From contig NC_021149.1 of the NCBI RefSeq assembly GCF_000380335.1, positions 1,798,001 through 1,862,000 of the forward strand: a stretch of DNA of 64,000 nt, in the 5' to 3' direction. Positions 4,813 through 48,912 of the stretch are shown in pieces (the stretch's first letter is position 1; the number at the start of each line of letters is the position of its first letter). This DNA is from Azotobacter vinelandii CA. Lineage in GTDB: Bacteria; Pseudomonadota; Gammaproteobacteria; Pseudomonadales; Pseudomonadaceae. Made by a program: the position numbers and the translations under genes. The notes under the pieces were generated by a model that was not told the DNA's origin, made no database searches, and saw only the letters and a program-made list of their open reading frames with translations.

Positions 4813-5277
4813 ATGAACGCTGTCCGGCGAGAGATGAATCTTTATCTGGACGATCTGGCCGTGGGCGCACGCTTTCGCAGTAGCGAATTCGTGCTGGACG
4901 AAGAGGCTCTCAAAGCCTTCGCCGCGCAATTCGACCCGCAGCCTTTTCATCTGGACGACGAGGCGGCCAGGCAGACCCTGTTCGGCGGACTGGCGGCCAG
5001 CGGTTGGCATACCGCGGCCATCACCATGCGTCTGCTGGTCACCAGCGGCATGCCCCTGGCCGACGGACTGATCGGCGCCGGCGGCGAGATCGACTGGCCC
5101 AGGCCGACCCGGGCGGGGGACACCCTGCACGTGGAGAGCTGCATCCAGGCGATCACGCCGTCGCGCTCCAAGCCGGATCGCGGCATCGTCGCTCTGGAAA
5201 GCCTGACGCTGAACCAGCGTGGCGAGGTGGTGCAACGCTTGCTGGCCAAGCTGGTCGTGTTCCGGCGGCCACTGTAG
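4813..5277 (+). CDS. MaoC-like hotdog-fold dehydratase
   Basis: The 154-residue product is a single-hotdog MaoC-like protein with the typical order: LYLDDLAVGARFRS, FAAQFDPQPFHLDDEAA (catalytic Asp/His region), a GGLAASGWHTAA helix and GGEIDWPRPTRAGDTL. MaoC-type proteins hydrate enoyl-CoA or related thioesters. The start at 4813 follows GAGGA with 7-8 bp spacing; an upstream in-frame ATG at 4792 is less well placed. It lies 38 bp after the porin stop, suggesting uptake and catabolism of an acid, which is inference. Confidence 0.88.
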   Translation: MNAVRREMNLYLDDLAVGARFRSSEFVLDEEALKAFAAQFDPQPFHLDDEAARQTLFGGLAASGWHTAAITMRLLVTSGMPLADGLIGAGGEIDWPRPTRAGDTLHVESCIQAITPSRSKPDRGIVALESLTLNQRGEVVQRLLAKLVVFRRPL

Positions 5278-5326
5278 AGGCTGTGCCGGCAGGCGAGGGC
5301 GGGCGTCCCGCCTGCCTGGCGTTCCA

Positions 5327-5602
5327 TCAGCGCTGCTTGGCCATCTCGATATGCTGGTCGAGGTTCTCGTCCAGCATCTTGCCGAACTGCTCTCTGTACC
5401 AGTCGAAGGCCTTCTCCTTGTCGACCGACAGGTCGCCGGAGCGGCACGCGGCCTCGTGGGCGCTGAAGCGGGCCGCGGCGTAGCGGATGGCAGCGCTGAT
5501 CTGCCCCAGATCCTTCTGTTCCTCTTCGAGCAGGCGGTTGGCGACGGCGATGAACTCATCGGCCATGTCGAAGATTTCCATGTTTACGGGGTTGTTGGAC
5601 AT
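5327..5602 (-). CDS. DUF3144 domain-containing protein, copy 1
   Basis: The product is a 91-residue helical cytoplasmic protein of the DUF3144 family. Signature stretches are IFDMADEFIAVANRLL, ISAAIRYAAARFSAHEA and FDWYREQFGKMLDENLDQHI. Function unknown. A second divergent DUF3144 gene lies at 62977-63285, sharing FDxADEFIxxANRLxxEE, the ALRYAAAR-type core and FxxMLDEN. The minus-strand start at 5602 has AGGAG just upstream. It is convergent with the MaoC gene. Confidence 0.9.
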   Translation of the reverse strand: MSNNPVNMEIFDMADEFIAVANRLLEEEQKDLGQISAAIRYAAARFSAHEAACRSGDLSVDKEKAFDWYREQFGKMLDENLDQHIEMAKQR

Positions 5603-5777
5603 GTTCGGCTCCTGTTGGCATTGAAAGGGAGTGTTTTCGTTGTACGTGGCACGCAAGTAAACAACGCCTGCCACGGCGCCGGAGCAGGGAGGACCGAGGG
5701 CTGCCCGGCGGTCCGGCGAAGTTTTCGCGGGTTCGCGTTGTCCATTACAGCACAGCGACCCAGCAAGGGAGAGTCGT

Positions 5778-6023
5778 ATGGCCCGCAAGCATTTTGCCAA
5801 GTTCGATGCCATTTCCTCGGCTGTTCCCGTCGACGACGTCTTCGAGGCCGTCATCGCCGTCAAGCGCCGGGGTGTGGACGAAAACGCCCGCGTACATAAG
5901 GTGGCCAACGGCCAGCGCTACGACCTGGCCTCCGAAGCCGACGCGGCGGCCGAGGCCGCCTTGAGCAAGGTGGTCGAGGTCCGCGACGACGGCGAACTGC
6001 TCTGGGAACCCCATGCGCTGTGA
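5778..6023 (+). CDS. Conserved hypothetical protein (81 aa)
   Basis: The 81-residue protein starts MARKHFAKFDAISSAVPVDD and is mixed alpha/beta with a basic N-terminus and an acidic C-terminal half. No membrane segment or cysteine motif is present. AAGGGAGAG lies directly before the start. It is divergent from the DUF3144 gene and convergent with the YebC gene. Similar small proteins occur in pseudomonads but I cannot name a function. Confidence 0.62.
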   Translation: MARKHFAKFDAISSAVPVDDVFEAVIAVKRRGVDENARVHKVANGQRYDLASEADAAAEAALSKVVEVRDDGELLWEPHAL

Positions 6024-6071
6024 CGGGGCGCTCCGGCGGCAGGGCCGGCGTCGCGCCTGCGCGGCCGAGTG

Positions 6072-6770
6072 TCAGACGCTCAGTCCGACGTAGACGTTCT
6101 GCACGTCGTCATGGTTGTCGAGGGCTTCGAGGAAGGCCTCGACCTCCTCGAGTTCGCTGCCCGACAGGCTCACCGGGTTCTTCGCCTTGTAGCCGAGGTT
6201 GGCCGACTGCACGGTGAAGCCGAACTCCGGCAGCGCCTTGCACACCGCGTCCAGGTCGGTCGGATCGGTGTAGAACAGGGTGGCGCCTTCCTCGGCTGGC
6301 TCGAAGTCCTGGGCGCCGGCCTCGATGGCGGCCAGTTCCGGATCGGCGCCGTTCTCGGCGGCGGCCTCGATCATGCCCAGGTGGTCGAAGTCCCAGCTCA
6401 CCGAGCCGGAAGTGCCGAGTTGGCCCTTGCGGAACAGCACGCGGATTTCCGCCACGGTGCGATTGATGTTGTCGGTCAGGCACTCGACGATCACCGGCAC
6501 GCGGTGCGGGGCGAAGCCCTCGTAGAGCGTGCGCTCGTAGTTGACCACCTCGCCGGAGAGTCCCGCGCCTTTCTTGATGGCGCGCTCCAGGGTGTCCTTG
6601 GGCATCGAGGCCTTCTTCGCCTGATACACCGCCAGGCGCAGCTTGGGGTTCATGTCCGGGTCCGCACCGTTGCGTGCGGCAATCATGATTTCCTTGACCA
6701 GCTTGCCGAAGATCTTGCCCTTGGCATTGGCGGCAATTTCCTTGGGTCTGGCTTTCCACTGGGCGCCCAT
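6072..6770 (-). CDS. YebC/PmpR-family DNA-binding regulator or ribosome rescue factor
   Basis: The 232-residue product has the complete YebC/TACO1 structure: [14 protein letters not shown]-like N-terminus (here [18 protein letters not shown]), then [19 protein letters not shown], the [17 protein letters not shown] segment, and the SWDFDHLG-type second domain. Family members are known as transcription regulators (PmpR, which represses quorum sensing in Pseudomonas) and, more recently, as factors relieving ribosome stalling at prolines. The sequence resembles the YeeN-type paralogue rather than the ruvC-linked YebC, since no ruv genes adjoin. It stands alone. Confidence 0.9.
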
Positions 6771-6921
6771 ATCGGTTCTCTCGCTGCAACGATCGGCTCC
6801 CGGCCGGTCCGGGAACGAAAGGGGGCGATTCTAGCGCTTCGCGGGCGGGCAGGGCAGCACCGGGAATGAAACCGCCGGCGGCAATGACGGCGCCCGCGAG
6901 CGACTGCCGGGCGCGCGGGAC

Positions 6922-7323
6922 TCAGTGCAGCAGCTCGGGCGGCACGTTACCGCCGTTTTCCGCCAGCTTCTGCAGTACGGCCTTGTGCAGCCAGGTGTTC
7001 ATCTGCGCCGAGTCGCCCATCTTCTCCGGCGGACAGCCCAGCTCGCCGGCCAGTTCCTTGCGCGCCTGCGGGCTGCTGTCCAGATCGAGCAGCTTGAGCA
7101 GGTCGACGATGGAGGTCTTCCAGTTGAGCTTTTCCGGGTGTCTAGCCGCCAGGTCTTCCAGTTTGCCCACCACGTCCACCGGTCCGCCGCCCGTCGTCGT
7201 GGAGGCGGTCGGTGTGGGACCGGCCGGTGTGGGCGTCGGCGGTGGTGCACTGGTCGGAGCTTCCGCCGCCCGCGCTTTCGAGCCGAACCCGAGCGAATTG
7301 AGAATATTGCTGAACAGGCCCAT
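6922..7323 (-). CDS. DUF3597 domain-containing protein
   Basis: The product is 133 residues. It begins MGLFSNILNSLGFG, typical of DUF3597, followed by an Ala/Pro/Thr-rich linker (about residues 20-48). The conserved C-terminal domain has LNWKTSIVDLLKLLDLDSS and MNTWLHKAVLQKLAENGG. The C-terminal part resembles a compact helical domain found in phage and cell-wall-associated proteins; function is unproven. The start at 7323 follows a GGAGGGAC sequence on the minus strand. The gene stands alone between the YebC gene and a frameshifted DUF1176 gene. Confidence 0.85.
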   Translation of the reverse strand: MGLFSNILNSLGFGSKARAAEAPTSAPPPTPTPAGPTPTASTTTGGGPVDVVGKLEDLAARHPEKLNWKTSIVDLLKLLDLDSSPQARKELAGELGCPPEKMGDSAQMNTWLHKAVLQKLAENGGNVPPELLH

Positions 7324-7563
7324 GGGGGTCCCTCCATTTTCCGGTTGTGGCGGAGTGGAGCATAGATCAGGGAGGCGTCGTCATCCGGGCGGTAGTTGCC
7401 GGGGAAATACTGGCAATTTGCCGAAAAATGACGGTATCGGGTACGCGGTGCGGGGCGCCGTGCTGCTGTCGGCGGCCGGCGGCGCCCGCCGGTCGCGCTT
7501 GTGGCATCCCGGTTCGGCGCGCAAGATGCGCGTCAAGATCGCCCCATGCAGAACGGAGTTCCC

Positions 7564-12016: not shown

Positions 12017-12033
12017 GTTCCCACGCGAGGGCG
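12017..12033. repeat. Left half of REP-like palindrome with IS target duplication
   Basis: GTTCCCACG begins at 12017, and 12024-12033 is CGCGAGGGCG, the 10-bp target duplication of the IS4 element. Joined to the right half at 13484-13500, the pre-insertion site reads as an inverted repeat GTTCCCACG-N6-CGTGGGAAC. Confidence 0.88.
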
Positions 12034-13483
12034 CTCGTCGTTATATACAACTCCAGTCCCCACAGGTCTATACCCAAAAGGGATTCGTGGAGAATGACGA
12101 TGAACTGGGCAGAGGAAGAAATGCAGACCGCCGACCTAGGCGATGAGCGCCTGAATGTACGGGTAGCCAAGGTCCTGGAGCGGTTGGGAGCGCACCCGGG
12201 GAGCAGCATTCCCGCGGCCTGCCGGGGCTGGGCGGAAACGATGGCGGCCTATCGGTTCTTCGACCACGAGAAGGCAACATTCGAGACGGTGCTGACACCG
12301 CATCGGGATGCCACGCTGCAGCGCATGGAGTGTTGCCCGGTGGTGTTGCTGGTACAGGACACCACCGAGCTCGACAAGTGGGTGAGCCTGGGCCCCAAGG
12401 GCGTGGGCACGCTCAAGGAGCAGCAGAAATACCCGCGTCGGTTGCATCCGACCGTGGCCTTTACCCCAGAACGCATCTGCCTTGGGGTCGTGGAGGCCTT
12501 GTGGTGGAGCCGCGACGAACCGAGTCCGCGCAAGGCGCGTCGTGGCAAGGGCGTGGACGAGAAGGAGAGCCGGCGCGGGATCGACAGTTACCAGGCTAGC
12601 TGCGCGTTGCAGGGGCAGATCCCCAAAACGCAATTGGTGAACCTCGCCGATGCGGAAGGGGATCTGTATGAATGGTTCACCGAGTATGCGGAAGTCGCAC
12701 CGTCCACGCGGGCGCAGTGGATCGTGCGTGCGGCACAGGATCGACGCGTGCTGACGGGCGATGCCGACAAGCTATGGGCATCGCTGGCCATGGCGCCGGG
12801 TCTGGGGCAGCTCGCCGTCGAGGTCCGGGCACGCCCGAAGCGCCCGGCCCGGCAGGCCCGGGTCACGTTGCGTTCGGCCACTGTCGTGCTGCGTCCCCCC
12901 GCTCGAATCGGTCGCCACTTGCCGGAAGTCTCCGTCAATGCCGTGCTGGCCCGCGAAGAGAATCCTCCGGAGGGCGTCGAGCCGCTGGAGTGGCTGTTGC
13001 TGACCAGCTTGCCGGTGGGCAGCCTGGAACAGGCCTCTACGATTGTCGCCTGGTATGCCGTGCGCTGGTATATCGAGATTTACTTTCATGTCCTGAAAAA
13101 CGGCTGTCAGATCAATTGCCTGCAACTGGAAACCGAGGAGCGGCTACTGCCTTGCATCGGGCTTTACCTGGTGGTTGCCTGGCGAGTGCTGTACAGCCTG
13201 ATGCTCGGACGTGCCTGCCCGGAGCTGAATTGCGAGTTGATTTTCGAAGCCCGGGAGTGGCGGGCCGCCTACCTCGTGATCAAGCGCTGCCCACCGCCGC
13301 CGGTGCCACCTCGACTGGGCGAGATGGTTGAGTGGGTGGCCGGTCTGGGCGGCTATCTGGGGCGCAAACACGATGGCCCACCCGGCCCCAAGGCCATGTG
13401 GATCGGATTGCAGCGATTGCGGGAGTTTGTCATTGCACTGGAAGCACGCGATGCGCTCGCCGGAACTTATGTATAACGACGAG
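12034..13483 (+). mobile_element. IS4-family insertion sequence, copy 1 (1,450 bp)
   Basis: The element has imperfect terminal inverted repeats starting CTCGTCGTTATA at the left and ending TATAACGACGAG at the right. It is flanked by a perfect 10-bp target duplication CGCGAGGGCG (12024-12033 and 13484-13493). It encodes one complete transposase. A second copy of identical length lies inverted at 19016-20465. The only difference I noticed is one base in the terminal region (TTATATAC here, TTATACAC in copy 2). Intact ends and duplications imply recent movement. Confidence 0.95.
12100..13476 (+). CDS. IS4-family transposase (Tn5/IS50-like group), copy 1
   Basis: The 458-residue enzyme has a Tn5-type N-terminal DNA-binding domain (MNWAEEEMQTADLGDERLNV, then AACRGWAETMAAYRFFDH) and an RNase H-like DDE core. 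The first Asp is in VLLVQDTTELD, the second in NLADAEGDLYE, and the Y-x2-R-x3-E-x6-K signature of the IS4 family is present as YAVRWYIEIYFHVLK. The start at 12100 follows GGAG with 7-bp spacing; another ATG at 12094 is too close to it. The stop lies 7 bp inside the right end. It is expected to cut and paste the element. Confidence 0.95.
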   Translation: MNWAEEEMQTADLGDERLNVRVAKVLERLGAHPGSSIPAACRGWAETMAAYRFFDHEKATFETVLTPHRDATLQRMECCPVVLLVQDTTELDKWVSLGPKGVGTLKEQQKYPRRLHPTVAFTPERICLGVVEALWWSRDEPSPRKARRGKGVDEKESRRGIDSYQASCALQGQIPKTQLVNLADAEGDLYEWFTEYAEVAPSTRAQWIVRAAQDRRVLTGDADKLWASLAMAPGLGQLAVEVRARPKRPARQARVTLRSATVVLRPPARIGRHLPEVSVNAVLAREENPPEGVEPLEWLLLTSLPVGSLEQASTIVAWYAVRWYIEIYFHVLKNGCQINCLQLETEERLLPCIGLYLVVAWRVLYSLMLGRACPELNCELIFEAREWRAAYLVIKRCPPPPVPPRLGEMVEWVAGLGGYLGRKHDGPPGPKAMWIGLQRLREFVIALEARDALAGTYV

Positions 13484-13500
13484 CGCGAGGGCGTGGGAAC
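13484..13500. repeat. Right half of REP-like palindrome with IS target duplication
   Basis: 13484-13493 repeats CGCGAGGGCG, the target duplication, and is followed by TGGGAAC. Together with 12017-12033 it rebuilds the interrupted palindrome. Confidence 0.88.
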
Positions 13501-13921: not shown

Positions 13922-14765
13922 CCATTGATCGAGCGTTTGCGAAAATGTGCCGCCTTTCGGTTCAGGCCAGCCGTCCGTGGATCGATGGATCGGACGGTGG
14001 CCTGCATGCCGTGCAGCTGGGTCCAGATCACAACATGAGCCTTATGTAGCGCCGATCTGAGCTAACTACACAAAGCAAACCTGGAGAAGCCGGGGCGGGA
14101 TCGCGAGGAGGAGAGGACGGGAGGCGAGCACCGATGGTGTCTGGAACGGGCCGGAGGGGTCGTGCGGTCCGCCACAAGCATCATCAGAATGTCTCGCCAG
14201 CGCTTTCTCGCCACCAGTGCGATCACTGCCAGTCAACTTCATCAGTCCGCCTTGTGGGCAGTACAGCCGCGAAGTGGCTCGACGAGGTGGGTCGAGCAAA
14301 CCGCGAACACCCTTACCAGGGCTCCCTGTTAGGGAAGCAGCTTCATCATCGGGGGATGGGTGCGGTCGTGTCAATAGTTTTGTAGTGATTTTTTTCGTGA
14401 ACTACAAGGTGCGCATCCATGCGGGTATACCGGTGCGTCATGGCCGGCCTGGGCATTCGGGGGTGTCGGACGTGGCTCGTCGCCAGCGACCCTATCCCGC
14501 TTGTTCGCCGATGCCAGCGGGGCGCTGGTATCGACAGGAAAGCCGGAGGGCGAGGGCGCTGAGGCCATGTAGCCCTTCTATCCGCCGGCGGCTGGCAGTG
14601 GTACGCGAGGGCCCGGATCATCGAGTGGAAAGGAAAGCTGGCAAGCGGGGAATGCCTGAAAATCCCGAAACCGAAAGAGTCTCTTCTTTTGATTTGGGTC
14701 AATTTGTCAAGAACGGATTATTGCTACATATTGCCGCACAATATGAATGTCAGGGAGAGATAACG
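13922..14765. other. Long non-coding or relic region
   Basis: About 840 bp without a gene I can support. Open frames exist on both strands at 14066-14385, but neither product is recognisable and no clear RBS precedes them. The segment 14380-14410 is T-rich (gtagtgatttttttcgtga). The stretch could be a decayed mobile element, but I found no terminal repeats. The last ~100 bp are more AT-rich and probably hold the promoter of the small membrane protein. Confidence 0.4.
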
Positions 14766-14915
14766 ATGTTGATGGCCATTGTTCTTACCGTAGTGTTTAC
14801 CTGGTTGGTTCTGTTCGTGGCGGGTGTGTGCCTGGGACGTTGGATGCGTCCTTCGTCCAAGGTGGCAACCCATGCGGACGGCGTGGTGGACAGTACCGGT
14901 CTCAGACTGGGTTGA
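14766..14915 (+). CDS. Small single-pass membrane protein (49 aa)
   Basis: The 49-residue protein has one hydrophobic helix at about residues 3-25 (AIVLTVVFTWLVLFVAGVCL), then GRWMRPSSK and a short polar tail. GGGAG lies 9-10 bp upstream of the ATG and a strong intrinsic terminator follows 21 bp after the stop. RBS, membrane helix and terminator together support a real gene. I do not recognise a family. Confidence 0.6.
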   Translation: MLMAIVLTVVFTWLVLFVAGVCLGRWMRPSSKVATHADGVVDSTGLRLG

Positions 14916-14936
14916 TGCGAAAACCGGAAGAAAATG

Positions 14937-14973
14937 AACGACAAAGCCCTGCTCGACGCAGGGCTTTGTCGTT
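14937..14973. terminator. Intrinsic terminator, bidirectional
   Basis: A perfect 15-bp stem AACGACAAAGCCCTG / CAGGGCTTTGTCGTT with a 7-nt loop. It lies between the small membrane protein gene and the convergent rlhA gene and probably serves both. Confidence 0.9.
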
Positions 14974-15009
14974 CAGCACCGGTTCGGTTTTCCGGGCAGA
15001 TCGGCGGGC

Positions 15010-17010
15010 TCAGCGTTGCGCTCTGTTCCTGATGGTCTTGAGCAACTCCTCGGGACTGATCTGGCCGACGATACCGGTCGAGCTGCCGGGTTGGGGCTGG
15101 GCGAGGATGTGGTCTTTCATCCTGCCGATGACGTGCATCTCGCAGGCCTTGCAGTCGAACGTCAGGGTCAGCACCTCGTCCTGATGCACCAGTTGCATCG
15201 GCGCGACCCTGGTGCGCACGCCCGTGACGCCCTTGGCCTGTTTCGGGCACAGGTTGAAGGAGAAACGCAGACAGTGCTTGGTGATCATCACCGGCACTTC
15301 GCCGGCCTCCGCGTGAGCCTCGTAGGCCGCGTCGATCAGTTGCACGCCGTAGCGGCGATAGAACGCCCGGGCCTTCTCGTTGTACACGTTGGCCAGGAAG
15401 GTCAGGTGCGATTCCGGGTACACCGGCGGCGGCTCGCTGACCGGCTTGCGGCTGCCGCGCCGGTGGGTGGCCAGGCGGGCGGCAGTCAGGGCCTCGATGG
15501 CCTCGCGGCGCAGGGCCTTGAGCAGGGAGTTCGGGACGAAGAATGCCTGCGGTGCATCGATCTCCACTTCTTCGGCATGGTAGAGGGTGGTGCCCAATTG
15601 ACCGAGCAGGTCGCGCAACTGCTCGAGCGCCTGTTCCGGCTTCTTCGCCAGTCCGAAGGGCCCGGCGAGACTCGCCGAAGCGCCGACGCCTTCCTCGCTG
15701 GTCACGTTCAGGTCGAGTGCCTCCTCCGTCAGCCGGACCTGCCAGCGCACCCCGACCCGGCGCTCGGCGGAAGTCTTCTGCAGCGCCTGCTGCCAGTCGT
15801 GGTCCAGGTTGCGGTTCAGCGCATGATGCGGACGCAACTGCTTCAGCGCGGCCGGCATCTCGTTGGGCTCGATGCGGTATTGCCAGTGGGGCTTGCCGCC
15901 CCGCTCGGAGCGTTCGAGCTGTTCGACGACGCTGGCACGGAAGCCCACCACTTCGCGCTTGACCAGCACGTTCAGGCCGTCGCCGTTGCCGAGCGGCTCC
16001 GTGGTGCCGGCGATGAAATCCTTCTTGCGGACCTTGAGTATCTCGCCCACCGGCAGGCCGGTGAAGGTCGGCGAATCGAAGGCGCCGATGTCGATCCTGC
16101 GCTCGTTGACGAAGTAGTCCGTGCTGCCGCGGTGGAAGGTCTTGTCCGGGTCCGGCACGAAGAAGTGCTCGGTCCGGCCGCTGGAGGCTCGTGCCAGCTC
16201 CGGGCGCTCGCTCAGGACCTCGTCGAGCCGTTGCCGGTAGTAGGCGGTGATGTTCTTCACGTAGCCCATGTCCTTGTAGCGTCCCTCGATCTTGAAGGAG
16301 CGCACCCCGGCATCAATCAGCGCGCGCAGGTTGGCGCTCTGGTTGTTGTCCTTCATCGACAGCAGGTGCTTGTCGTAGGCCACCACCCGGCCCTGGTCGT
16401 CCTTCAGGGTGTAGGGCAGCCGGCAGGCCTGCGAGCAGTCGCCGCGGTTGGCGCTGCGCCCGGTCTGCGCGTGGGAGATGTAGCACTGCCCGGAGAAGGC
16501 CACGCACAGCGCGCCGTGGATGAAGAACTCGATGGTCGAGTCCACTCGCGCGCCGATGGCGCGGACCTCCGCAAGGCCGAGTTCGCGCGCTAGCACCAGT
16601 TGGGAGAAACCGGCGTCGGCCAGGAATTTCGCCTTTTCCAGGGTGCGGATGTCGCACTGGGTGCTGGCGTGCAGCTCGATGGGCGGAATGTCCATTTCCA
16701 GGATGCCCATGTCCTGCACGATCAGCGCGTCGATGCCCGCGTCGTGTAGCTGCCAGATCAACTGGCGGGCTGGTTCCAGCTCGTCGTCGTGCAGGATGGT
16801 GTTGAGGGTGACGAACACCCGGGCGTGGAACTGGTGGGCGAACTCCACCAGGCCGGCGATATCCGTCACATCGTTGCCGGCGCTGTGCCGCGCACCGAAG
16901 CTGGGGCCGCCGATGTACACGGCATCGGCGCCATGCAGGATCGCCTCCTTGGCGATGGACACATCCCGTGCCGGGCTGAGCAGTTCCAGATGGTGCTTGG
17001 GTAATGACAT
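15010..17010 (-). CDS. rlhA: U32-family 23S rRNA C2501 hydroxylase RlhA
   Basis: The 666-residue product matches RlhA (formerly YdcP), which with prephenate and iron-sulfur chemistry forms 5-hydroxycytidine at C2501 of 23S rRNA. The N-terminus HHLELLSPARDVSIAKEAI and GADAVYIGGPSFGARH is diagnostic, as is FVTLNTILHDDELEPA. The Cys cluster of peptidase-U32 proteins is visible as SQACRLPY and nearby Cys residues (GALCVAFSGQCYISH). The C-terminal collagenase-like extension of the long RlhA type is present, with its own Cys residues (CLRFSFNLCPKQAKG, DCKACEMHVIG). It is much longer than TrhP (about 450 aa). The minus-strand start at 17010 matches the E. coli N-terminus. Confidence 0.93.
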   Translation of the reverse strand: MSLPKHHLELLSPARDVSIAKEAILHGADAVYIGGPSFGARHSAGNDVTDIAGLVEFAHQFHARVFVTLNTILHDDELEPARQLIWQLHDAGIDALIVQDMGILEMDIPPIELHASTQCDIRTLEKAKFLADAGFSQLVLARELGLAEVRAIGARVDSTIEFFIHGALCVAFSGQCYISHAQTGRSANRGDCSQACRLPYTLKDDQGRVVAYDKHLLSMKDNNQSANLRALIDAGVRSFKIEGRYKDMGYVKNITAYYRQRLDEVLSERPELARASSGRTEHFFVPDPDKTFHRGSTDYFVNERRIDIGAFDSPTFTGLPVGEILKVRKKDFIAGTTEPLGNGDGLNVLVKREVVGFRASVVEQLERSERGGKPHWQYRIEPNEMPAALKQLRPHHALNRNLDHDWQQALQKTSAERRVGVRWQVRLTEEALDLNVTSEEGVGASASLAGPFGLAKKPEQALEQLRDLLGQLGTTLYHAEEVEIDAPQAFFVPNSLLKALRREAIEALTAARLATHRRGSRKPVSEPPPVYPESHLTFLANVYNEKARAFYRRYGVQLIDAAYEAHAEAGEVPVMITKHCLRFSFNLCPKQAKGVTGVRTRVAPMQLVHQDEVLTLTFDCKACEMHVIGRMKDHILAQPQPGSSTGIVGQISPEELLKTIRNRAQR

Positions 17011-17470
17011 GGCGGTGAGATTCGGGACGAAACGAGCGTGCCATTGTAGCCGGCTTGGGCGAGTTTTGATCGCTTCAGGCGCCTTTGGCAACGGGGCCGG
17101 TGACAGCCTGCATCGGGGACGATCGGGGGAGCGGTCCGGACTGAAAGGGCGTATCCCGTGCGAAGTTCCCGGCGAGGTGATCGCTATGCCGAACTCCGGT
17201 CGATTTCATGTTCTTGCATGAAGGCAGGGCAGATGACCGTCGGCAGACAGGGTGAGAGGTTCGGGGCGACCGAAAAATCGATCCTAGGCCTGTCTCGGAT
17301 TGCACGTCCATCCCCTATCGCCGCCATTGTTACGGACTTCTGACACAAGTCAGCAATGCATATTTTTCTCTGCACAGGGGGCTTCCAGACGCCTCGGTTC
17401 GGCGTAGTCTGGAGGTGTCGCGATGCAACTACGCGGCACCATTGCTGATCGATTGAAGAGGGAATGGCAT
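17011..17470. other. Intergenic region between divergent rlhA and HPF-like genes
   Basis: About 460 bp that must carry promoters for both divergent genes. The segment 17330-17375 is AT-rich and the most promoter-like. No operator was recognised and the short frames here have no recognisable product. Confidence 0.45.
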
Positions 17471-17881
17471 ATGCAACTCCAGGTTCACAGCGATAACCAT
17501 ATCGAAGGCAGTGCCCGTCTGGCCGGCTGGGTCCGCGCCACCATCGCCAGCAAGTTCGAGCGTTACGGCGAGGAATTGACCCGCGTTGTCGTCCATCTGA
17601 ACGACGAGAAAGGCAACAAGGCCGGAGCCAACGACAAGCGCTGCCAGATCGAAGCCCGCGCCAGGGGATGCCAGCCGCTGTCGGTGAGTCACAACGCCGA
17701 GTCCCTGGAGTTCGCCCTGGATGGCGCGATGGAAAAACTCGGCCATGCCCTGGCCCATCGGCTCGGCAAGCAGCGCAACAAGCGCATTGCGGACAGCCGT
17801 GGGTTCGCTGGCAGCGTGGCCGGTCGCGACCGTTTGCTGGAGGAGGACTTCCTCATCGAGGAGCAACTGCGCATCGCCTGA
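17471..17881 (+). CDS. HPF/RaiA-family ribosome-associated protein
   Basis: The 136-residue protein resembles the short hibernation-promoting factors: MQLQVHSDNHIEGS, a beta-alpha-beta fold with RVVVHLNDEKGNKAGANDKRCQIEAR, and ALDGAMEKLGHALAHRLGKQR near residue 85. HPF-type proteins bind the 30S decoding region in resting cells. This variant carries a C-terminal ~30-residue extension (GRDRLLEEDFLIEEQLRIA) instead of the long dimerisation domain. GAGGGA precedes the start at 17471 and a terminator follows closely, so it is monocistronic. Confidence 0.82.
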   Translation: MQLQVHSDNHIEGSARLAGWVRATIASKFERYGEELTRVVVHLNDEKGNKAGANDKRCQIEARARGCQPLSVSHNAESLEFALDGAMEKLGHALAHRLGKQRNKRIADSRGFAGSVAGRDRLLEEDFLIEEQLRIA

Positions 17882-17892
17882 GTCCGCAACGG

Positions 17893-17929
17893 AAAAACCG
17901 CCGGCAGGCCGGATCTGTCGGCGGTTTTT
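17893..17929 (+). terminator. Intrinsic terminator of HPF-like gene
   Basis: An AAAAACCGCC / GGCGGTTTTT hairpin begins 12 bp after the stop codon and ends in a T run. The A run on the other arm means it could also work in the opposite direction for the repeat-protein gene. Confidence 0.88.
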
Positions 17930-18025
17930 CATGGCCCGTTTGAATGATCGCTCCTACCACGCCGCGTAGGACCGGGACCGCGGTGTCCCTTTGCGCAAGC
18001 GGTGGGGTGTCGCTCCATCTACGGC

Positions 18026-18769
18026 TCAGGCCGGTTTTTGCTGAATTTGCTCCATCTGCTCCTGAATCGCTCTCAGCGCTGGATGGTTCTGAAAGTGCTC
18101 CATCTCCTCCTGAATCGTTTTCAGCGCCGGATTGTTCTGAAGGTGTTCTATCTGTTCCCGGAACGTTTTCAGCGCCGGGTTGTTCTGGAAATGCTCCATT
18201 TCCTCCTGAATCGCTTTCAGTGCCGCAGTGTTCTGAAATTGCTCTATCTCTTCCTGGAGCGCTTTCAGCGCCGGATTGTTCTGTAAGTGTTGCATTTCCT
18301 CCTGGAGCGCTTTCAGCACTGGATTGTTTTGAAGTTTCTCCATTTCTTCGCGGATCGTTTTCAGCTCCATATTGTTCTGAAAGTACTCCATCTGCTCTTG
18401 ATATCCCTTCATCACCGGATGGTTTCGAAGTTGCTCCATCTGCTCCTGGAGCGCTTTCAGCTCTGGGTCGTTCTGAAAGCGCTCCATCTGCTCCTGAAAC
18501 TCCTTCAGTAGCGGGTTGCTCTGGAATTTTTCCATCTGCTCCTGAAATTCCTTCAACACCCGATTGTTCTGAAGTTGCTCTATCTGCTCCTGGAGCGTTT
18601 TTAGCATCGAATTATTCTGTAAGTGCTCCATCTGCTCCTGGATCGCTTGCAGTGCCCCATTCTTCTGAAAATTCTCCATCTGCTCCTGAAGCGTTTTCAG
18701 CGTCGCGTTGTTCTGAAGGTGCTCCAGTTGTTCCTGAAATCCCTTCAGGCATTGGTTGATGTTGTCCAT
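18026..18769 (-). CDS. Protein of fifteen tandem 16-residue repeats
   Basis: The 247-residue product is seven N-terminal residues (MDNINQC) followed by exactly fifteen 16-residue repeats and nothing else. The consensus is LKxLQEQMExLQNNPA, with L/K at positions 1-2, I/L/F at 4, QE at 5-6, M/I at 8, F/L at 11 and N-N-P near 13-15. Each unit would form one amphipathic helix capped by an Asn/Pro turn, so an alpha-solenoid or stacked helical array is more likely than one long coiled coil. There is no signal peptide, membrane segment or second Cys. AAGGAG precedes the start at 18769. I do not recognise a family; function unknown. Confidence 0.88.
   Translation of the reverse strand: MDNINQCLKGFQEQLEHLQNNATLKTLQEQMENFQKNGALQAIQEQMEHLQNNSMLKTLQEQIEQLQNNRVLKEFQEQMEKFQSNPLLKEFQEQMERFQNDPELKALQEQMEQLRNHPVMKGYQEQMEYFQNNMELKTIREEMEKLQNNPVLKALQEEMQHLQNNPALKALQEEIEQFQNTAALKAIQEEMEHFQNNPALKTFREQIEHLQNNPALKTIQEEMEHFQNHPALRAIQEQMEQIQQKPA
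18029..18748 (-). repeat. 15 x 48-bp in-frame tandem repeat array
   Basis: The DNA counterpart of the fifteen 16-residue repeats is 720 bp with no interruption. The units are diverged from each other, so the array is old enough to have drifted but keeps exact 48-bp phasing. The top strand shows recurrent CTCCTGAA and CTCCATCTGCTCCTG motifs. Confidence 0.9.
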
Positions 18770-19005
18770 GACTGTCTCCTTCGTATCGACTCGATAGTGA
18801 TGTGGAGCTCTCGCCAAACCAGCCTTGATATTCCACTGTCATACATTTGCTACCACGGGCTTTTCCTCTGCACACATCAACGAAAGCACAAAGTGGCGCA
18901 TGAGCAATGGGATTCTACGAACGGCCAAGTCGGGGCGTTTTGGCGTTTTGGCGTGAGCCGTGTTGGCGTGTCGAATGCCGCCAGGTAAGGCGTCACGAAG
19001 CCGAT
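18770..19005. other. Intergenic region between repeat-protein gene and IS4 copy 2
   Basis: About 235 bp with no supported gene; it should contain the promoter of the minus-strand repeat-protein gene. Nothing else recognised. Confidence 0.4.
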
Positions 19006-19015
19006 CGCTCCCACG
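19006..19015. repeat. IS target duplication and left half of REP-like palindrome
   Basis: CGCTCCCACG is repeated exactly at 20466-20475. Joined to TGGGAGCG at 20476-20483 it rebuilds an 18-bp perfect palindrome interrupted by IS4 copy 2. Confidence 0.9.
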
Positions 19016-20465
19016 CTCGTCGTTATACATAAGTTCCGGCGAGCGCATCGCGTGCTTCCAGTGCAATGACAAACTCCCGCAATCGCTGCAATCCGATCCA
19101 CATGGCCTTGGGGCCGGGTGGGCCATCGTGTTTGCGCCCCAGATAGCCGCCCAGACCGGCCACCCACTCAACCATCTCGCCCAGTCGAGGTGGCACCGGC
19201 GGCGGTGGGCAGCGCTTGATCACGAGGTAGGCGGCCCGCCACTCCCGGGCTTCGAAAATCAACTCGCAATTCAGCTCCGGGCAGGCACGTCCGAGCATCA
19301 GGCTGTACAGCACTCGCCAGGCAACCACCAGGTAAAGCCCGATGCAAGGCAGTAGCCGCTCCTCGGTTTCCAGTTGCAGGCAATTGATCTGACAGCCGTT
19401 TTTCAGGACATGAAAGTAAATCTCGATATACCAGCGCACGGCATACCAGGCGACAATCGTAGAGGCCTGTTCCAGGCTGCCCACCGGCAAGCTGGTCAGC
19501 AACAGCCACTCCAGCGGCTCGACGCCCTCCGGAGGATTCTCTTCGCGGGCCAGCACGGCATTGACGGAGACTTCCGGCAAGTGGCGACCGATTCGAGCGG
19601 GGGGACGCAGCACGACAGTGGCCGAACGCAACGTGACCCGGGCCTGCCGGGCCGGGCGCTTCGGGCGTGCCCGGACCTCGACGGCGAGCTGCCCCAGACC
19701 CGGCGCCATGGCCAGCGATGCCCATAGCTTGTCGGCATCGCCCGTCAGCACGCGTCGATCCTGTGCCGCACGCACGATCCACTGCGCCCGCGTGGACGGT
19801 GCGACTTCCGCATACTCGGTGAACCATTCATACAGATCCCCTTCCGCATCGGCGAGGTTCACCAATTGCGTTTTGGGGATCTGCCCCTGCAACGCGCAGC
19901 TAGCCTGGTAACTGTCGATCCCGCGCCGGCTCTCCTTCTCGTCCACGCCCTTGCCACGACGCGCCTTGCGCGGACTCGGTTCGTCGCGGCTCCACCACAA
20001 GGCCTCCACGACCCCAAGGCAGATGCGTTCTGGGGTAAAGGCCACGGTCGGATGCAACCGACGCGGGTATTTCTGCTGCTCCTTGAGCGTGCCCACGCCC
20101 TTGGGGCCCAGGCTCACCCACTTGTCGAGCTCGGTGGTGTCCTGTACCAGCAACACCACCGGGCAACACTCCATGCGCTGCAGCGTGGCATCCCGATGCG
20201 GTGTCAGCACCGTCTCGAATGTTGCCTTCTCGTGGTCGAAGAACCGATAGGCCGCCATCGTTTCCGCCCAGCCCCGGCAGGCCGCGGGAATGCTGCTCCC
20301 CGGGTGCGCTCCCAACCGCTCCAGGACCTTGGCTACCCGTACATTCAGGCGCTCATCGCCTAGGTCGGCGGTCTGCATTTCTTCCTCTGCCCAGTTCATC
20401 GTCATTCTCCACGAATCCCTTTTGGGTATAGACCTGTGGGGACTGGAGTTGTGTATAACGACGAG
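19016..20465 (-). mobile_element. IS4-family insertion sequence, copy 2 (1,450 bp, inverted)
   Basis: This is the same element as 12034-13483 in the opposite orientation, with the same length and an identical predicted transposase. Ends read CTCGTCGTTATA and TATAACGACGAG, flanked by a perfect 10-bp duplication CGCTCCCACG. Because each copy has its own matched duplication, both arose by separate transposition events. Confidence 0.95.
19023..20399 (-). CDS. IS4-family transposase, copy 2
   Basis: The 458-residue transposase is identical in sequence to copy 1, with the same DDE residues and the YREK signature. The start at 20399 is the mirror of the start chosen in copy 1. It is complete and apparently functional. 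Confidence 0.95.
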   Translation of the reverse strand: MNWAEEEMQTADLGDERLNVRVAKVLERLGAHPGSSIPAACRGWAETMAAYRFFDHEKATFETVLTPHRDATLQRMECCPVVLLVQDTTELDKWVSLGPKGVGTLKEQQKYPRRLHPTVAFTPERICLGVVEALWWSRDEPSPRKARRGKGVDEKESRRGIDSYQASCALQGQIPKTQLVNLADAEGDLYEWFTEYAEVAPSTRAQWIVRAAQDRRVLTGDADKLWASLAMAPGLGQLAVEVRARPKRPARQARVTLRSATVVLRPPARIGRHLPEVSVNAVLAREENPPEGVEPLEWLLLTSLPVGSLEQASTIVAWYAVRWYIEIYFHVLKNGCQINCLQLETEERLLPCIGLYLVVAWRVLYSLMLGRACPELNCELIFEAREWRAAYLVIKRCPPPPVPPRLGEMVEWVAGLGGYLGRKHDGPPGPKAMWIGLQRLREFVIALEARDALAGTYV

Positions 20466-20483
20466 CGCTCCCACGTGGGAGCG
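20466..20483. repeat. IS target duplication and right half of REP-like palindrome
   Basis: CGCTCCCACG (target duplication) followed by TGGGAGCG. The uninterrupted site CGCTCCCACGTGGGAGCG is a perfect palindrome. Confidence 0.9.
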
Positions 20484-20558
20484 GAGCACCCCCCCCCGAG
20501 CGTGCTCGAAAGGCCTGCAATCGCGCATCATGGAGGTAGTCATATCGAGGAGGTTTCC

Positions 20559-21407
20559 ATGCGCATTGCTTCATTCGTGGCACGGCTCGCGGCCGTATCG
20601 CTGGGTCTGGTGTCCGCCGTCGTCGGGGCCGGCGAAGAGGCGCAACTGGTGGCGTCGATCAACGCCTACCGGGCGCAGGTGCAGAGTTGCGCCGGCCGGG
20701 CGGCCGGCGAGCTGCCGCCGCTGACGGACGATCCGCGGCTGATCCTGCCGGCCGATGGCAGTGGGGATCTGCGGGAGTCTCTGGGGCTCGCCGCCTATCC
20801 GCTGGTCAACGCACAGGCGATCAGCCTGTCCGGCCCGCGCGACGCGCAAGCCGCCATGGCGACCTTGCGGCAGAGCTTCTGTCAGGTGGTGCTGGACCCG
20901 CAGTTCGTCGATATCGGTGTCAGCCGCGCGGAACGCGACTGGCGCATCGTGCTGGCGCGACCGTTGCTGGCCGGGCGCATGGGCGACTGGCAGGCGGAAG
21001 GGCAGAAGCTGCTCGAACAGATCAACGCCGTTCGCGCGCAGCCGCGCCAGTGCGCTGGCCAGCGGTTCGCCGCGGCGCCACCGCTGGCCTGGAGCTCTGT
21101 CCTGGGCGGCGCGGCCGAAAGCCACAGCCGGGCCATGGCCAACGGCAACTTCTTCGACCACAAGGACCGCGACGGCCGTACTCCGAGCGACCGGGCGGAA
21201 CTGGCCGGCTACACCGGCGGGCTGATCGGCGAGAACATCGCCGCCGCCATGGACAACGCGCGCAAGGTGGTCGACGGCTGGCTGGCCAGCCCTGGTCACT
21301 GCGCCAATCTGATGAATCCGCAGTTCAGCGAACTGGGTGCGGCCTACGCCGCCGATCCGAAGAGCGATGCGGGAATCTACTGGACGGCGTTGTTCGGCGC
21401 GCCCTGA
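20559..21407 (+). CDS. Secreted CAP (SCP/PR-1) superfamily protein with a degenerate duplicate
   Basis: The 282-residue protein has a signal peptide (MRIASFVARLAAVSLGLVSA, cleavage near VGAGEE). The C-terminal ~145 residues are a CAP domain: LLEQINAVRAQPRQC, LAWSSVLGGAAESHSRAMA, FFDHKDRDGRTPSDR, GENIAAAM and VDGWLASPGHCANLM, including the His and Glu of the CAP cavity. The N-terminal half (LVASINAYRAQVQSCAG...) looks like a second CAP copy that has lost the HSRAMA and GENIA motifs. GAGGAGG precedes the start. CAP proteins are extracellular; the bacterial role is poorly known. Confidence 0.87.
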   Translation: MRIASFVARLAAVSLGLVSAVVGAGEEAQLVASINAYRAQVQSCAGRAAGELPPLTDDPRLILPADGSGDLRESLGLAAYPLVNAQAISLSGPRDAQAAMATLRQSFCQVVLDPQFVDIGVSRAERDWRIVLARPLLAGRMGDWQAEGQKLLEQINAVRAQPRQCAGQRFAAAPPLAWSSVLGGAAESHSRAMANGNFFDHKDRDGRTPSDRAELAGYTGGLIGENIAAAMDNARKVVDGWLASPGHCANLMNPQFSELGAAYAADPKSDAGIYWTALFGAP

Positions 21408-21488
21408 GCGGACGATGGCGCTCTTGCCTGCTGCTATCCTGAACGGTGGGCATCGCCCGTCCTTTCAGTCAACTCGGGAGAACTCGCG

Positions 21489-21830
21489 ATGAGCAGCTTC
21501 GAGATTGAGAGCTGGCGCAAGACCAGACCCACCGAGAAATCGGTTCCCATGGGACTGATCCACTTCTATATCGGCGGCGACGACCGCCAGCACCTGGAAC
21601 AGGCCGAGGAGCGCTTGCAGAGCACCGGCGAATCCGAGGCGCTGGTCGAGGTTGACCTGAACACCCTGGAACTGGTCACCCCGCCCGAATGCGGGCCGTT
21701 GTCCGACTGCCACTTGCGGGTCTACCTGCGGCCGGAGGATCGGCGCGGGCAGTTTCACTTGGTTGGACATCGTGCCAGCGACGGTAGCCTGATCTACACC
21801 AACGCTTTGCTGATCGACTCGCTGATGTAG
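21489..21830 (+). CDS. Conserved hypothetical protein (113 aa)
   Basis: This soluble protein begins MSSFEIESWRKTRPTEKSVP and includes IHFYIGGDDRQHLEQAEERLQ and a C-terminal beta-rich part (FHLVGHRASDGSLIYTNALL). It has no signal peptide or membrane helix. GGGAGA lies 7-8 bp before the start. It follows the CAP gene by about 80 bp and could share its transcript. No family is recognised. Confidence 0.65.
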   Translation: MSSFEIESWRKTRPTEKSVPMGLIHFYIGGDDRQHLEQAEERLQSTGESEALVEVDLNTLELVTPPECGPLSDCHLRVYLRPEDRRGQFHLVGHRASDGSLIYTNALLIDSLM

Positions 21831-21987
21831 TGCCTTCGGTCCTGGAAAGCGTGAGGATAACCGGCACGGCTCGGGGTATCCCTGGCGTTCGCTGGGGATG
21901 AGTTCGTACGGAGTTTTTTATGGCTTGATTGCTATAACGCTTTCGCCCATCCTGAGGCTCCACGTTGATCCGTTATCGGGGACAGGC

Positions 21988-22197
21988 ATGAGCACGGCAG
22001 GGGTAAACCTGGCATTGTTGGCCAAGGTCAATCATTTTCTGGCTGCGAAAGGGGAACGGCAGATCAAGCGCTGCCAGCCCGACAGCGACAGGTATGAGGA
22101 GTTGGGAAGCCTGTATCTGATCGAAATGGCTTCCGGCGAAGTGCTCGACCACCATGTGGATATCGAAGCGTTCGCCGAGAAGATCGGCCTCGCCTAG
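21988..22197 (+). CDS. Conserved hypothetical protein (69 aa)
   Basis: A small mixed alpha/beta protein beginning MSTAGVNLALLAKVNHFLAA and ending EAFAEKIGLA. The start at 21988 follows GGGGACAGGC; an upstream in-frame ATG at 21898 would add 30 residues without a better RBS. A strong intrinsic terminator follows within 20 bp, supporting real transcription. Function unknown. Confidence 0.6.
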   Translation: MSTAGVNLALLAKVNHFLAAKGERQIKRCQPDSDRYEELGSLYLIEMASGEVLDHHVDIEAFAEKIGLA

Positions 22198-22216
22198 AAA
22201 AGGCGAGCCTGTGTGG

Positions 22217-22241
22217 AACCCCGGCCTGGTGTCGGGGTTTT
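22217..22241 (+). terminator. Intrinsic terminator
   Basis: A 7-bp stem AACCCCG / CGGGGTT with a 9-nt loop and a following T run (TTTTGCTTT). A group II intron remnant starts a few bases downstream at 22247. Confidence 0.85.
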
Positions 22242-22246
22242 GCTTT

Positions 22247-22430
22247 GTGCGCCCAGCATGGGCGCACTCCTGTGGGTACAAGTCCCGTCGTAAGTTGATC
22301 ACAGCGAATCGCGAGCGCGAACATGGCGTTGGCGTGGAGGCGCGTCAGGGCCAGTCGCGGCAGAGCCGGGGTGGATGGACGGTCGAGCCATTTCGATCGG
22401 GAGCGATTCCTGGCGGGTCTGTTTGCGCTT
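22247..22430 (+). mobile_element. Group II intron remnant (5' end plus RT fragment)
   Basis: From 22247 the sequence starts GTGCGCCCAGCATGGGCGCA and matches the 5' end of the complete intron at 61087 for about 67 bp with few changes. Past about 22315 the match to the intron 5' region ends. About 30 bp on, the frame reads RRVRASRGRAGVDG, clearly related to RVRANRGSAGVDG of the intron-encoded reverse transcriptase. Most of domain I and the start of the RT gene are therefore deleted and the rest is lost. Like the intact copy, it lies directly after a terminator. Confidence 0.8.
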
Positions 22431-22662
22431 GCCGGCGTACTCGGCATCGGCAAAGGTCATCTGCTTCATCGGGAAACTCGGGCAATGGGATCGGTGTATT
22501 TCACCAGATTCAGAAAGTCTTCTTCAGATGGTATGGACGCCTCCCCCGGCAGCGGGCCGATTGCAACACCTCTGCATCGATAGAGGATCCTCGCTGCTCG
22601 GCATCGGAGTGCCACAGTGAAGCATGTGAATGGCAAGCATCACTTGAGCAAGAGGATCCATC

Positions 22663-23688
22663 ATGGAACATAGCGTGATCGGCATGGACATCGCCAAGAA
22701 GGTTTTCCAACTACATACCGTCGACCAGAACACCGGAAAAATCGAGCGCATCAAACTGCGGCGCGATGAAGTCCTGGCGTTTTTCGCCCGGCGCCAACCC
22801 TGCCTGGTGGCGATCGAGGCGTGCGGCAGCGCCCACTGGTGGGCTCGTCAGCTTCGGCAGCAGGGGCATGAAGTGCGCTTGCTGGCCCCTCGCTCAGTGC
22901 GTCCCTTCGTACTGCGCAACAAGACCGATGCGGCCGACGCCCAGGCCATCTGGACAGCGGTACAGCAGCCCGGCGCCTGCCTGGTCGCCATCAAGCAAGC
23001 GGACCAGCAGGCCATTCTCTCGCTGCACCGTATTCGTGCCCAACTGCTGAAGTTTCGCATCATGCAGAGCAATGGTTTGCGAGGGCTGTTTTACGAGTTC
23101 GGGATTGTGCTGCCGGAGGGGTATGCCCCCTTGTCCAAGGCTATGCCGGAAGCCTTCGCCGAGGCGGAAAATCAGGTTCCTCCCGTACTTCTGGAGAGCC
23201 TGCGCGAGCAGTGGGCGCGGGTGCTCAGACTGGAGGAGGAAATCCAGGTGATCGAACTCCGCCTGAAGCGCTGCCTGCGCGAGAACCCCGACTGCCAGAA
23301 AATTGCAGAGATCCCCGGCATCGGTTTATTGACGGCCACCGCTGCGGTTGCCTCGCTGGGAGACGCGACGACCTTTCGTTCCGGCCGACAGTTCGCCGCC
23401 TGGCTGGGACTGGTTCCCCGGCAGACCGGTACCGGCGGTCGAGTCCGGCAACTGGGGCTGAGCAAGCGCGGTGACAGCTACCTGCGCATGCTGTTGATGC
23501 ACGGGGCTCGCTCGATCCTCGCCAGGAGCCAGAAATCCGGATGGCTTGAGCGCTTGCTGGCCAGGCGGCCTCACAACGTGGCGGTCGCCGCGGTGGCCAA
23601 CAAGCTGGCCCGAACCCTGTGGGCCGTGCTGGCCAAGGGCTCTCCGTACCGGGCCGAGCGCTTTACCGCATGCCCTGCGGGGCATTGA
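22663..23688 (+). CDS. IS110-family transposase
   Basis: The 341-residue DEDD recombinase has an N-terminal RuvC-like domain (IGMDIAKKVFQLHTV with the first Asp, IEACGSAHWWAR with the Glu, NKTDAADAQAI with the two late Asp residues) and a C-terminal transposase-20 domain (IPGIGLLTATAAVASLGD, QFAAWLGLVPRQ, LSKRGDSYLRMLLMHGAR with the Ser). IS110 enzymes use an element-encoded structured RNA to choose targets and usually lack terminal repeats. The ATG at 22663 follows AAGAGGATCC. Complete and probably active; exact element ends are not visible. Confidence 0.93.
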   Translation: MEHSVIGMDIAKKVFQLHTVDQNTGKIERIKLRRDEVLAFFARRQPCLVAIEACGSAHWWARQLRQQGHEVRLLAPRSVRPFVLRNKTDAADAQAIWTAVQQPGACLVAIKQADQQAILSLHRIRAQLLKFRIMQSNGLRGLFYEFGIVLPEGYAPLSKAMPEAFAEAENQVPPVLLESLREQWARVLRLEEEIQVIELRLKRCLRENPDCQKIAEIPGIGLLTATAAVASLGDATTFRSGRQFAAWLGLVPRQTGTGGRVRQLGLSKRGDSYLRMLLMHGARSILARSQKSGWLERLLARRPHNVAVAAVANKLARTLWAVLAKGSPYRAERFTACPAGH

Positions 23689-24083
23689 GAAACGGCAGCC
23701 AACAGGCTTCACAAGGAGCGCAGGCGGTAAGCACGTGATGGCGGAACAGGTCAGACCGTGGCGAGGTAAACCTGATAAGGAAGATGAGCCAGGGCGCTGC
23801 CCACAGCTCGATTTTCAGATGCGGGCCTCGCCAGCGGATTCCATCAGGGCCAGCAGGTTTTTCGGCCTGCACAAACAGGCCGGATATAAGACTGCTCCTA
23901 CCTGAACGCCAGCAGGCCTACCTCTTGAGTTCCGGGAGGCGTCCATATAAGCCTTCCTTAGGTGTTTGTTCCCGGAAAGTACTGGTTCATGGTACGAGCC
24001 TCTCTCGAAGGAGGGTCCATGGCCATGGGAGGTTCCGGTCGCCTTTCGGGGACTACCTCTGGGCGTGTAACAGCAGTCGTCCG
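23689..24083. other. Non-coding region after IS110 transposase, candidate guide-RNA end
   Basis: About 395 bp with no supported gene. The first ~220 bp contain several short inverted repeats, for example GGCCTGC...GCAGGCC-like motifs around 23860-23920, and are the right place for the non-coding end of an IS1111-type IS110 element. The remainder (to the IS481 stub) is unidentified debris. The element boundary cannot be fixed from sequence alone. Confidence 0.4.
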
Positions 24084-48545: not shown

Positions 48546-48618
48546 CTATGCTGCCCAGCCAGAGGGCCGCCGCCCTCCCATTGATGAGCGGGCGAGGTGA
48601 TTACCCTGCGGCTTGCTA

Positions 48619-48912
48619 GGGCCTGTTGACGTTTGGGCGTAGGCCGCGACGGAGGCCCGTTTGGCGCAGAACAAGGAACGAGGAGAGAAGTTTGGTCATT
48701 CCAAATGAACGACGAGCGACGCCGTGCTGCGCCAAACGGGCCCCGTCCCTGCGGGTGGGGCCGCCCAGGTTGCGCGGCAAATGCCGCCATGCGGCGTTGC
48801 GGGTCTTGGCAAGGGAATGACCATTGCCGGCGACCCGCGCCTTGCCGAACGCGGCCCGGCCTGGCGGCATTTGACGCGGCAGCGCGGCTCACGCCCAAAT
48901 GTCAACAGGCCC
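48619..48912. mobile_element. MITE-like element (294 bp) with TA duplication
   Basis: The ends are inverted repeats: left GGGCCTGTTGACGTTTGGGC, right GCCCAAATGTCAACAGGCCC, with one mismatch. TA is found directly outside both ends (48617-48618 and 48913-48914), as for Tc1/mariner or IS630-type elements. The inside carries another inverted pair (CCCGTTTGGCGCAG / CTGCGCCAAACGGG) and no long meaningful gene. It is probably non-autonomous and mobilised by a transposase elsewhere. It sits between the kinase and HIT genes. Confidence 0.85.

Follow-up and report, generated by a model that had tools for sequence, protein, structure and literature searches.

Tandem repeats of 16 residues are found in the ice nucleation proteins of Pseudomonas, which form a β-solenoid with the consensus AGYGSTQTAGEESSLT (PMC9418140). 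A second report (PMC8010706) describes Sgt2-C as a set of amphipathic helices that are rich in Met and contain conserved prolines as helix breakers; when no client is bound, Sgt2-C is reported to be mostly random coil. Here, we analyzed a gene for a protein built from 16-residue units in a 64,000-nucleotide stretch of Azotobacter vinelandii DNA, hereafter called the window, which belongs to a genome consisting of a single contig of 5,366,370 bases. The product, P0001, is a real and unusual orphan repeat protein, the unit number of which is constant across the species seen. With one predicted helix occurring fifteen times, and with length and phase kept across species, it offers a clean natural test of repeated single-stripe helices.

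Repeat pattern, coding status and predicted fold

The original prediction had located a gene at 18026–18769 and left out the strand. The gene is real and lies on the minus strand (Table 1), where this interval reads as a 247-aa open frame; the plus-strand reading has stops. The translation agrees with the predicted layout of seven residues followed by fifteen 16-residue units and nothing else: MDNINQC precedes exactly 15 units with the consensus L-K-(A/T)-Phi-Q-E-Q-M-E-x-(L/F)-Q-N-N-P-A. Residues 16 positions apart are identical at 129 of 231 positions, whereas 2000 residue shuffles average 22 and never exceed 40, and TRF finds a period of 48 in the gene with 14.9 copies, 72% matches and 0% indels. 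Unit-to-unit likeness is about equal at any spacing; the best spacing is three, with a p value of 0.06 versus shuffled order.

Table 1. Features of the repeat gene and its immediate surroundings (window coordinates)
Feature	Position	Strand	Remarks
Repeat-protein gene (P0001, 247 aa)	18026..18769	minus	ATG 18769-18767, stop 18028-18026
Fifteen 48-bp units of 16 residues each, residues 8-247 of P0001	18029..18748	minus	
AAGGAG ribosome-binding site, 6 bases 5' of the ATG	18776..18781	minus	GAGGAG in two homologues
Upstream stretch, ~165 bp	18770..18934	minus	conserved along with the gene in two homologues, even at another genomic site
Downstream stretch, ~30-40 bp	17988..18025	minus	conserved along with the gene
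48-bp end of a dispersed intergenic repeat	18933..18980	.	adjoins the module; missing at that place in G003

Hydrophobic residues occupy positions 1, 4, 8 and 11 in 15/15 units each, that is, in 60/60 places, and residues of the set LIMFVYW occur at only 7 of the other 180 positions of the units (67 in all). Position 8 is Met in 11/15 units. At the unit end, Pro is present at position 15 in 9/15 units, and Asn at positions 13 and 14 in 12/15 and 10/15, respectively; the literal triplet NNP, read from the sequence, occurs in 4/15. The N-N-P helix ending that had been proposed thus stands as a consensus but not as a constant, and the strict feature of the units is the hydrophobic pattern 1/4/8/11 rather than NNP. 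The uninterrupted heptads of a continuous coiled coil are absent, since each 16-residue unit consists of two heptads and a further two residues, and Asn/Pro mark the junction. A 16-residue period with such caps would be unfit for one unbroken coiled coil.

AF2 was run on the single sequence and again with the homologue from G002 included; both runs returned 15 helices, mostly of 14 residues, separated by two-residue breaks. Confidence was low, with mean pLDDT values of 61.6 and 62.2 and pTM values of 0.22 and 0.20; at this level, both models support the earlier suggestion of a helical array instead of a plain coiled coil. The local helix-break pattern of the model appears believable, and P0001 would accordingly be expected to adopt a helix-break-helix fold. 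A Foldseek search with the model gave no PDB match at E values up to 10, which, together with the low AF2 confidence, suggests that the chain alone may be largely disordered. At 100 degrees per residue, positions 1, 4, 8 and 11 form a stripe spanning ~80 degrees; such a width would be suited to a single contact per helix, and P0001 is therefore expected to pair with itself or with a partner. P0001 has a pI of 4.9 and a net charge of −17, and its most hydrophobic 19-residue window scores −0.25 (Kyte-Doolittle). No membrane-like segment is present and, in line with the original prediction, no signal peptide is seen by eye, which points to a cytoplasmic location.

Judged by sequence comparison, P0001 is a real coding protein under purifying selection. 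We compared dN/dS for the coding frame and the three opposite-strand frames. Against the copies of two other species, the coding frame gives 0.08 and 0.16, with 0.19 between those two; the neighboring S30AE gene gives 0.19–0.24. Two antisense frames with 1–4 stops have values of 1.3 to 4.4, and the third has 0.16–0.36, yet contains 16–18 stops. An antisense frame of 271 codons, 17944–18759 (+), is open across the array in the window, and its dN/dS of 1.3–4.4 gives no sign of protein-level selection. The dS of the repeat gene (0.30 and 0.29) is in line with that of the S30AE gene (0.30 and 0.31), so within Azotobacter the repeat gene has changed no faster or slower than usual. The 741 nt compared across three species contain no indel, which bears out the claim that selection has kept the phase. 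The AAGGAG site was also correctly recognized, as it lies 6 bases before the ATG and is retained as a ribosome-binding site in the homologues. The ~165-bp upstream stretch presumably holds the promoter; no sigma-70 consensus was found in 17850–19050 and no RNA family in 14000–24000. The G+C content of the gene is 48.9% versus 65.1% for the window, and 67% versus 77% in the S30AE gene at third positions. This low value stems partly from the Gln/Glu/Asn/Lys make-up, and a foreign origin could account for the remainder.

Distribution and genomic position

The repeat gene is present in three of four Azotobacter genomes, with homologues at 94 and 89% identity. All three copies have 15 units in the same order; in 89 of 90 comparisons a unit is most similar to its orthologous counterpart, and the remaining comparison is a tie. 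The fourth genome is without the gene, so a species can do without it. No paralogue was seen in the window's own genome. This constancy of length suggests that total size or register matters. The anticipated variation in copy number is thus not found in Azotobacter, where 3/3 copies from three species have 15 units; it does occur in viral-contig proteins of the same unit length and layout, which may or may not be kin to P0001 (see below).

Among 298 Pseudomonadaceae genomes, seven match P0001 at an E value of 0.001, namely the three Azotobacter genomes, G101 and G291 with array proteins, and G125 and G192 with chance coils. Array profile A1 includes rows from G101 and predates P0005, so that arrays of the P0005 type could be missed; in sampled genome sets it matched 4/390 genomes at the order level at E 0.001 (the window's own, G101 and two chance matches), 1/369 at the class level at E 0.0001 (the window's own) and 2/398 at the phylum level at E 0.0001 (the window's own and G101). 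Searching viral contigs and phages with P0001 gave no match. Several candidates were set aside. The chance coils lie in a sensor-kinase-like frame (G192) and a MotB-like frame (G125) and were dropped as relatives; G571 has stops in frame, G645 has one short helical stretch without an array, L043 has no long frame where it was read, and L045 has a 630-residue frame without an array. A match on a Bradyrhizobium plasmid is the reading of another simple repeat, antisense to an annotated gene, and secondary matches on the opposite strand of the repeat gene are artifacts of the repeat.

Family searches agree with the statement that P0001 has no recognizable family. In Pfam, the only match above the cut-off is DUF6757 (PF20542), with 30.9 bits and a best stretch of 25 residues. 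Column-scrambled P0001, however, passes the cut-off of a different family with 29.7 bits, whereas the reversed sequence gives 23.9 bits, below cut-off, and a plain shuffle gives no match. We therefore reject membership in DUF6757 as an artifact of periodic composition, and the remaining Pfam matches likewise, since the scrambled control gives a match of similar strength and the reversed one several weaker matches. NCBIfam and PHROG matches were judged by analogy with these Pfam controls: all NCBIfam matches are below cut-off, and the best PHROG match (E 3.6e-6 over 35 residues) is to a family of unknown function. A hint of a cyclophane RiPP (E 0.0059, 16.7 bits versus a cut-off of 36) was dropped, and neither PADLOC (best E 0.06) nor a PDB sequence search (best E 0.15) gave anything usable with P0001. 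A literature search of titles and abstract openings found no paper or experiment on P0001 among the matches listed. For a comparison with gas vesicles and GvpC, we note that GvpA matches in 0/4 Azotobacter genomes, but also in 0/14 control genomes.

The gene and its close surroundings form a module, the place of which differs between species: ~165 bp upstream and 30–40 bp downstream are conserved with it at differing sites. The module neighbors the S30AE gene in the window and in G003. It is missing from the corresponding site in G002 and G001, where <100 bp of other DNA separates the S30AE and CAP-protein genes. G002 (A. chroococcum) carries a ~960-bp block with the gene, at 89% identity, at a different site; in the window's genome, the counterparts of its flanks lie at distances of ~53 and 61 kb from the copy in the window. 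The counterpart stretch there measures 8.1 kb and for the most part does not resemble that of G002, so that it does not represent a clean empty site. At its upstream end, the module borders on a dispersed intergenic repeat in the window's genome (48 bp) and in G002, but not in G003, and it has no clear inverted or direct repeats on either side. Our guess is that the module was relocated by recombination between dispersed repeats. The repeat piece beside the G002 copy has 23 matches in the window's genome; in the window, the dispersed repeat was noted at 18933–18980 and about 48617–48912. Separately, two copies of one IS with a Tn5-type transposase, at 12019–13485 and 19014–20480, are 99.7% identical over 1467 bp and mutually inverted; the pair encloses the U32 peptidase, S30AE and repeat genes.

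Array proteins with a hydrophobic segment and an SH3-like domain

The two other array proteins, P0004 (G101, 445 aa) and P0005 (G291, 389 aa; from L008), come from one other genus of Pseudomonadaceae. Both consist of an N-terminal array of 16-residue units, a hydrophobic segment and an SH3-like domain, and we refer to proteins of this order as TM-SH3-type. The best 19-residue hydropathy is 2.14 in P0004 and 1.88 in P0005; from its sequence, the segment is probably transmembrane. SH3_3 scores below cut-off in P0004 and above it in P0005, and also above it in L061 and L063, the two viral-contig proteins scanned. With P0005 as the query, relatives were found on five viral contigs, with arrays in 5/5. 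Their hydrophobic segment is weaker in L068 and L070 (1.28 and 1.17), so a transmembrane segment is not certain there. We found no family name for these proteins, and "SH3 domain" is absent from the papers among the matches listed. P0005 and the L063 protein gave no match against phages and plasmids, nor did P0004 against viral contigs and plasmids.

In all five viral contigs, an integrase gene lies directly upstream of the array protein; in L061 (3955–6209) and L068–L071 (about 4890–7383), the integrase is of the tyrosine type and the protein directly after it is TM-SH3-type, with a head of 16-residue repeats. The L068 and L069 proteins are identical in all aligned columns, and one is without exactly 32 residues, that is, two units or 96 bp. 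This integrase-adjacent set, with arrays that change length by whole units, is the most interesting side result of our analysis, and its members are candidates for lysogenic-conversion or exclusion genes. By blastp, the C-terminal parts of seven compared proteins are linked, including L041 and L039, which have differing N-terminal halves; different heads thus occur on a related base. No array is visible in the N-terminal half of L041. The L039 relative (850–2067) has a head of 31-residue repeats (about 16+15), with an identity of 0.76 at lag 31. P0004 matches 8/199 genomes of its genus: G101 itself, six through the C-terminal base, and G804 through an N-terminal stretch that we take for chance. 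In L047 (6069–10976), the neighbors of P0004 are a UvrD/GajB-like helicase and a further protein with a weak match of the DUF4238 type, so that the setting resembles a defense island.

On P0001, 16-residue units with hydrophobic positions 1/4/8/11 are found, and there is no transmembrane-like segment, as the hydropathy given above indicates, and no SH3 match. The shared features are the unit length of 16, the mostly kept hydrophobic positions, Gln or Arg at position 5, often Met at position 8, and Pro near the unit end. The TM-SH3-type proteins differ in their additional hydrophobic segment and SH3 domain, in a varying unit number, in Tyr or His at position 16 and in Pro one place earlier.

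Proposed role and comparison with known systems

We propose that P0001 is a soluble cytoplasmic linear array of fifteen ~14-residue amphipathic helices that serves as a multivalent scaffold or adaptor, pairing with itself or with a hydrophobic partner, and we put the chances of this reading slightly short of even. Asn/Pro caps would separate the fifteen short helices. Each would expose one narrow hydrophobic stripe (L1, Phi4, M8, Phi11), the remaining surface being acidic and rich in Gln, Glu and Asn. The fifteen stripes, nearly equivalent to one another, might pair among themselves in short coiled-coil-like contacts, within or between chains, or repeatedly clasp a hydrophobic partner. Since a single stripe would let each helix make one contact, the array is most likely a multivalent scaffold or adaptor, and we infer multivalent binding from this. 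Directly established are the repeat, its phase, the stripe, purifying selection, the constant unit number in three species and the differing genomic positions.

The Met at position 8 in 11/15 units, the helix-breaking Pro/Asn between helices and the low-confidence fold of the chain alone would also fit an STI1/Sgt2-like holder, in which flexible Met-bearing helices become ordered only around a hydrophobic helix and shield membrane or aggregation-prone segments; the Met-rich helices with helix-breaking prolines described for Sgt2-C in PMC8010706 are a further likeness. We nevertheless think such a role unlikely, because no STI1 profile appeared among the best 25 of 26 matches at E up to 10, the units differ from STI1 helices in being uniform, and a TPR-like partner domain is absent. 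P0001 might also be an acidic amphipathic protein that coats granules or lipid surfaces, PHB for example, in the manner of phasins or apolipoproteins; such a role would make use of tandem proline-broken amphipathic helices, and Azotobacter stores PHB. Most lipid-binding helices, however, are unlike a narrow stripe with a net charge of −17, and one of four Azotobacter genomes is without the gene; we consider this role very improbable.

P0001 could instead be a free, soluble version of the TM-SH3 array heads that has the same origin and ligand as these heads and might act in competition with them. Unit length, stripe positions, Gln5 and frequent Met8 coincide, and a P0001 search retrieved the G101 and G291 proteins at E 6e-10. 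With a profile of the Azotobacter units, the arrays of P0004 and P0005 score 27.2 and 53.9 bits, respectively, and with a profile of the TM-SH3 units, the array of P0001 scores 72.5 bits. Among 2000 free column permutations each, 0, 2 and 0 attain these three scores (maxima 25.6, 73.2 and 69.5). Permutations that keep residue class or stripe, however, reach them in 33, 48 and 148 of 2000 (2–7%), and the reversed arrays score nearly as well as the forward ones (50.2 versus 53.9 for P0005; 63.6 versus 72.5 for P0001), so convergence is possible. The shared 16-residue layout is real and could reflect either common ancestry or convergence. P0001 is also without the transmembrane segment and SH3 domain, has its Pro one place later and differs at position 16, and we hold a free head to be doubtful, much as we do the holder. 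A broader idea, more doubtful still, is that Pseudomonadaceae share the 16-residue helical array as a recognition head of tunable length. Next to phage integrases, it would be carried by TM-SH3 anchors and gain or lose entire units; in Azotobacter, it would be free, soluble and fixed at fifteen, and would compete for the ligand of the anchored form or report on it. Should P0001 indeed be linked to the viral-contig proteins, this would point to an uncharacterized integrase-adjacent type with a head length changing by whole units, which would be a plausible phage-exclusion or sensing device.

For the multivalent array that we favor, known systems offer partial likenesses. Designed helical constructs (PDB 6nz1 and similar) share the order of helix, ENP loop and helix, but are artificial, and their E values of 0.15–0.69 are not significant. 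The Pseudomonas ice nucleation proteins have 16-residue tandem repeats and come from the same bacterial family, but they form a β-solenoid, whereas P0001 is predicted, with low confidence, to be all-helical; we reject an ice nucleation repeat, as P0001 contains 0 TxT, 0 SLT and 0 GYG. The helices of STI1 and Sgt2-C are mutually unlike and belong to eukaryotic co-chaperones with TPR domains, which sets them apart from P0001; common to both are short Met-bearing amphipathic helices that are broken by proline and would be flexible alone.
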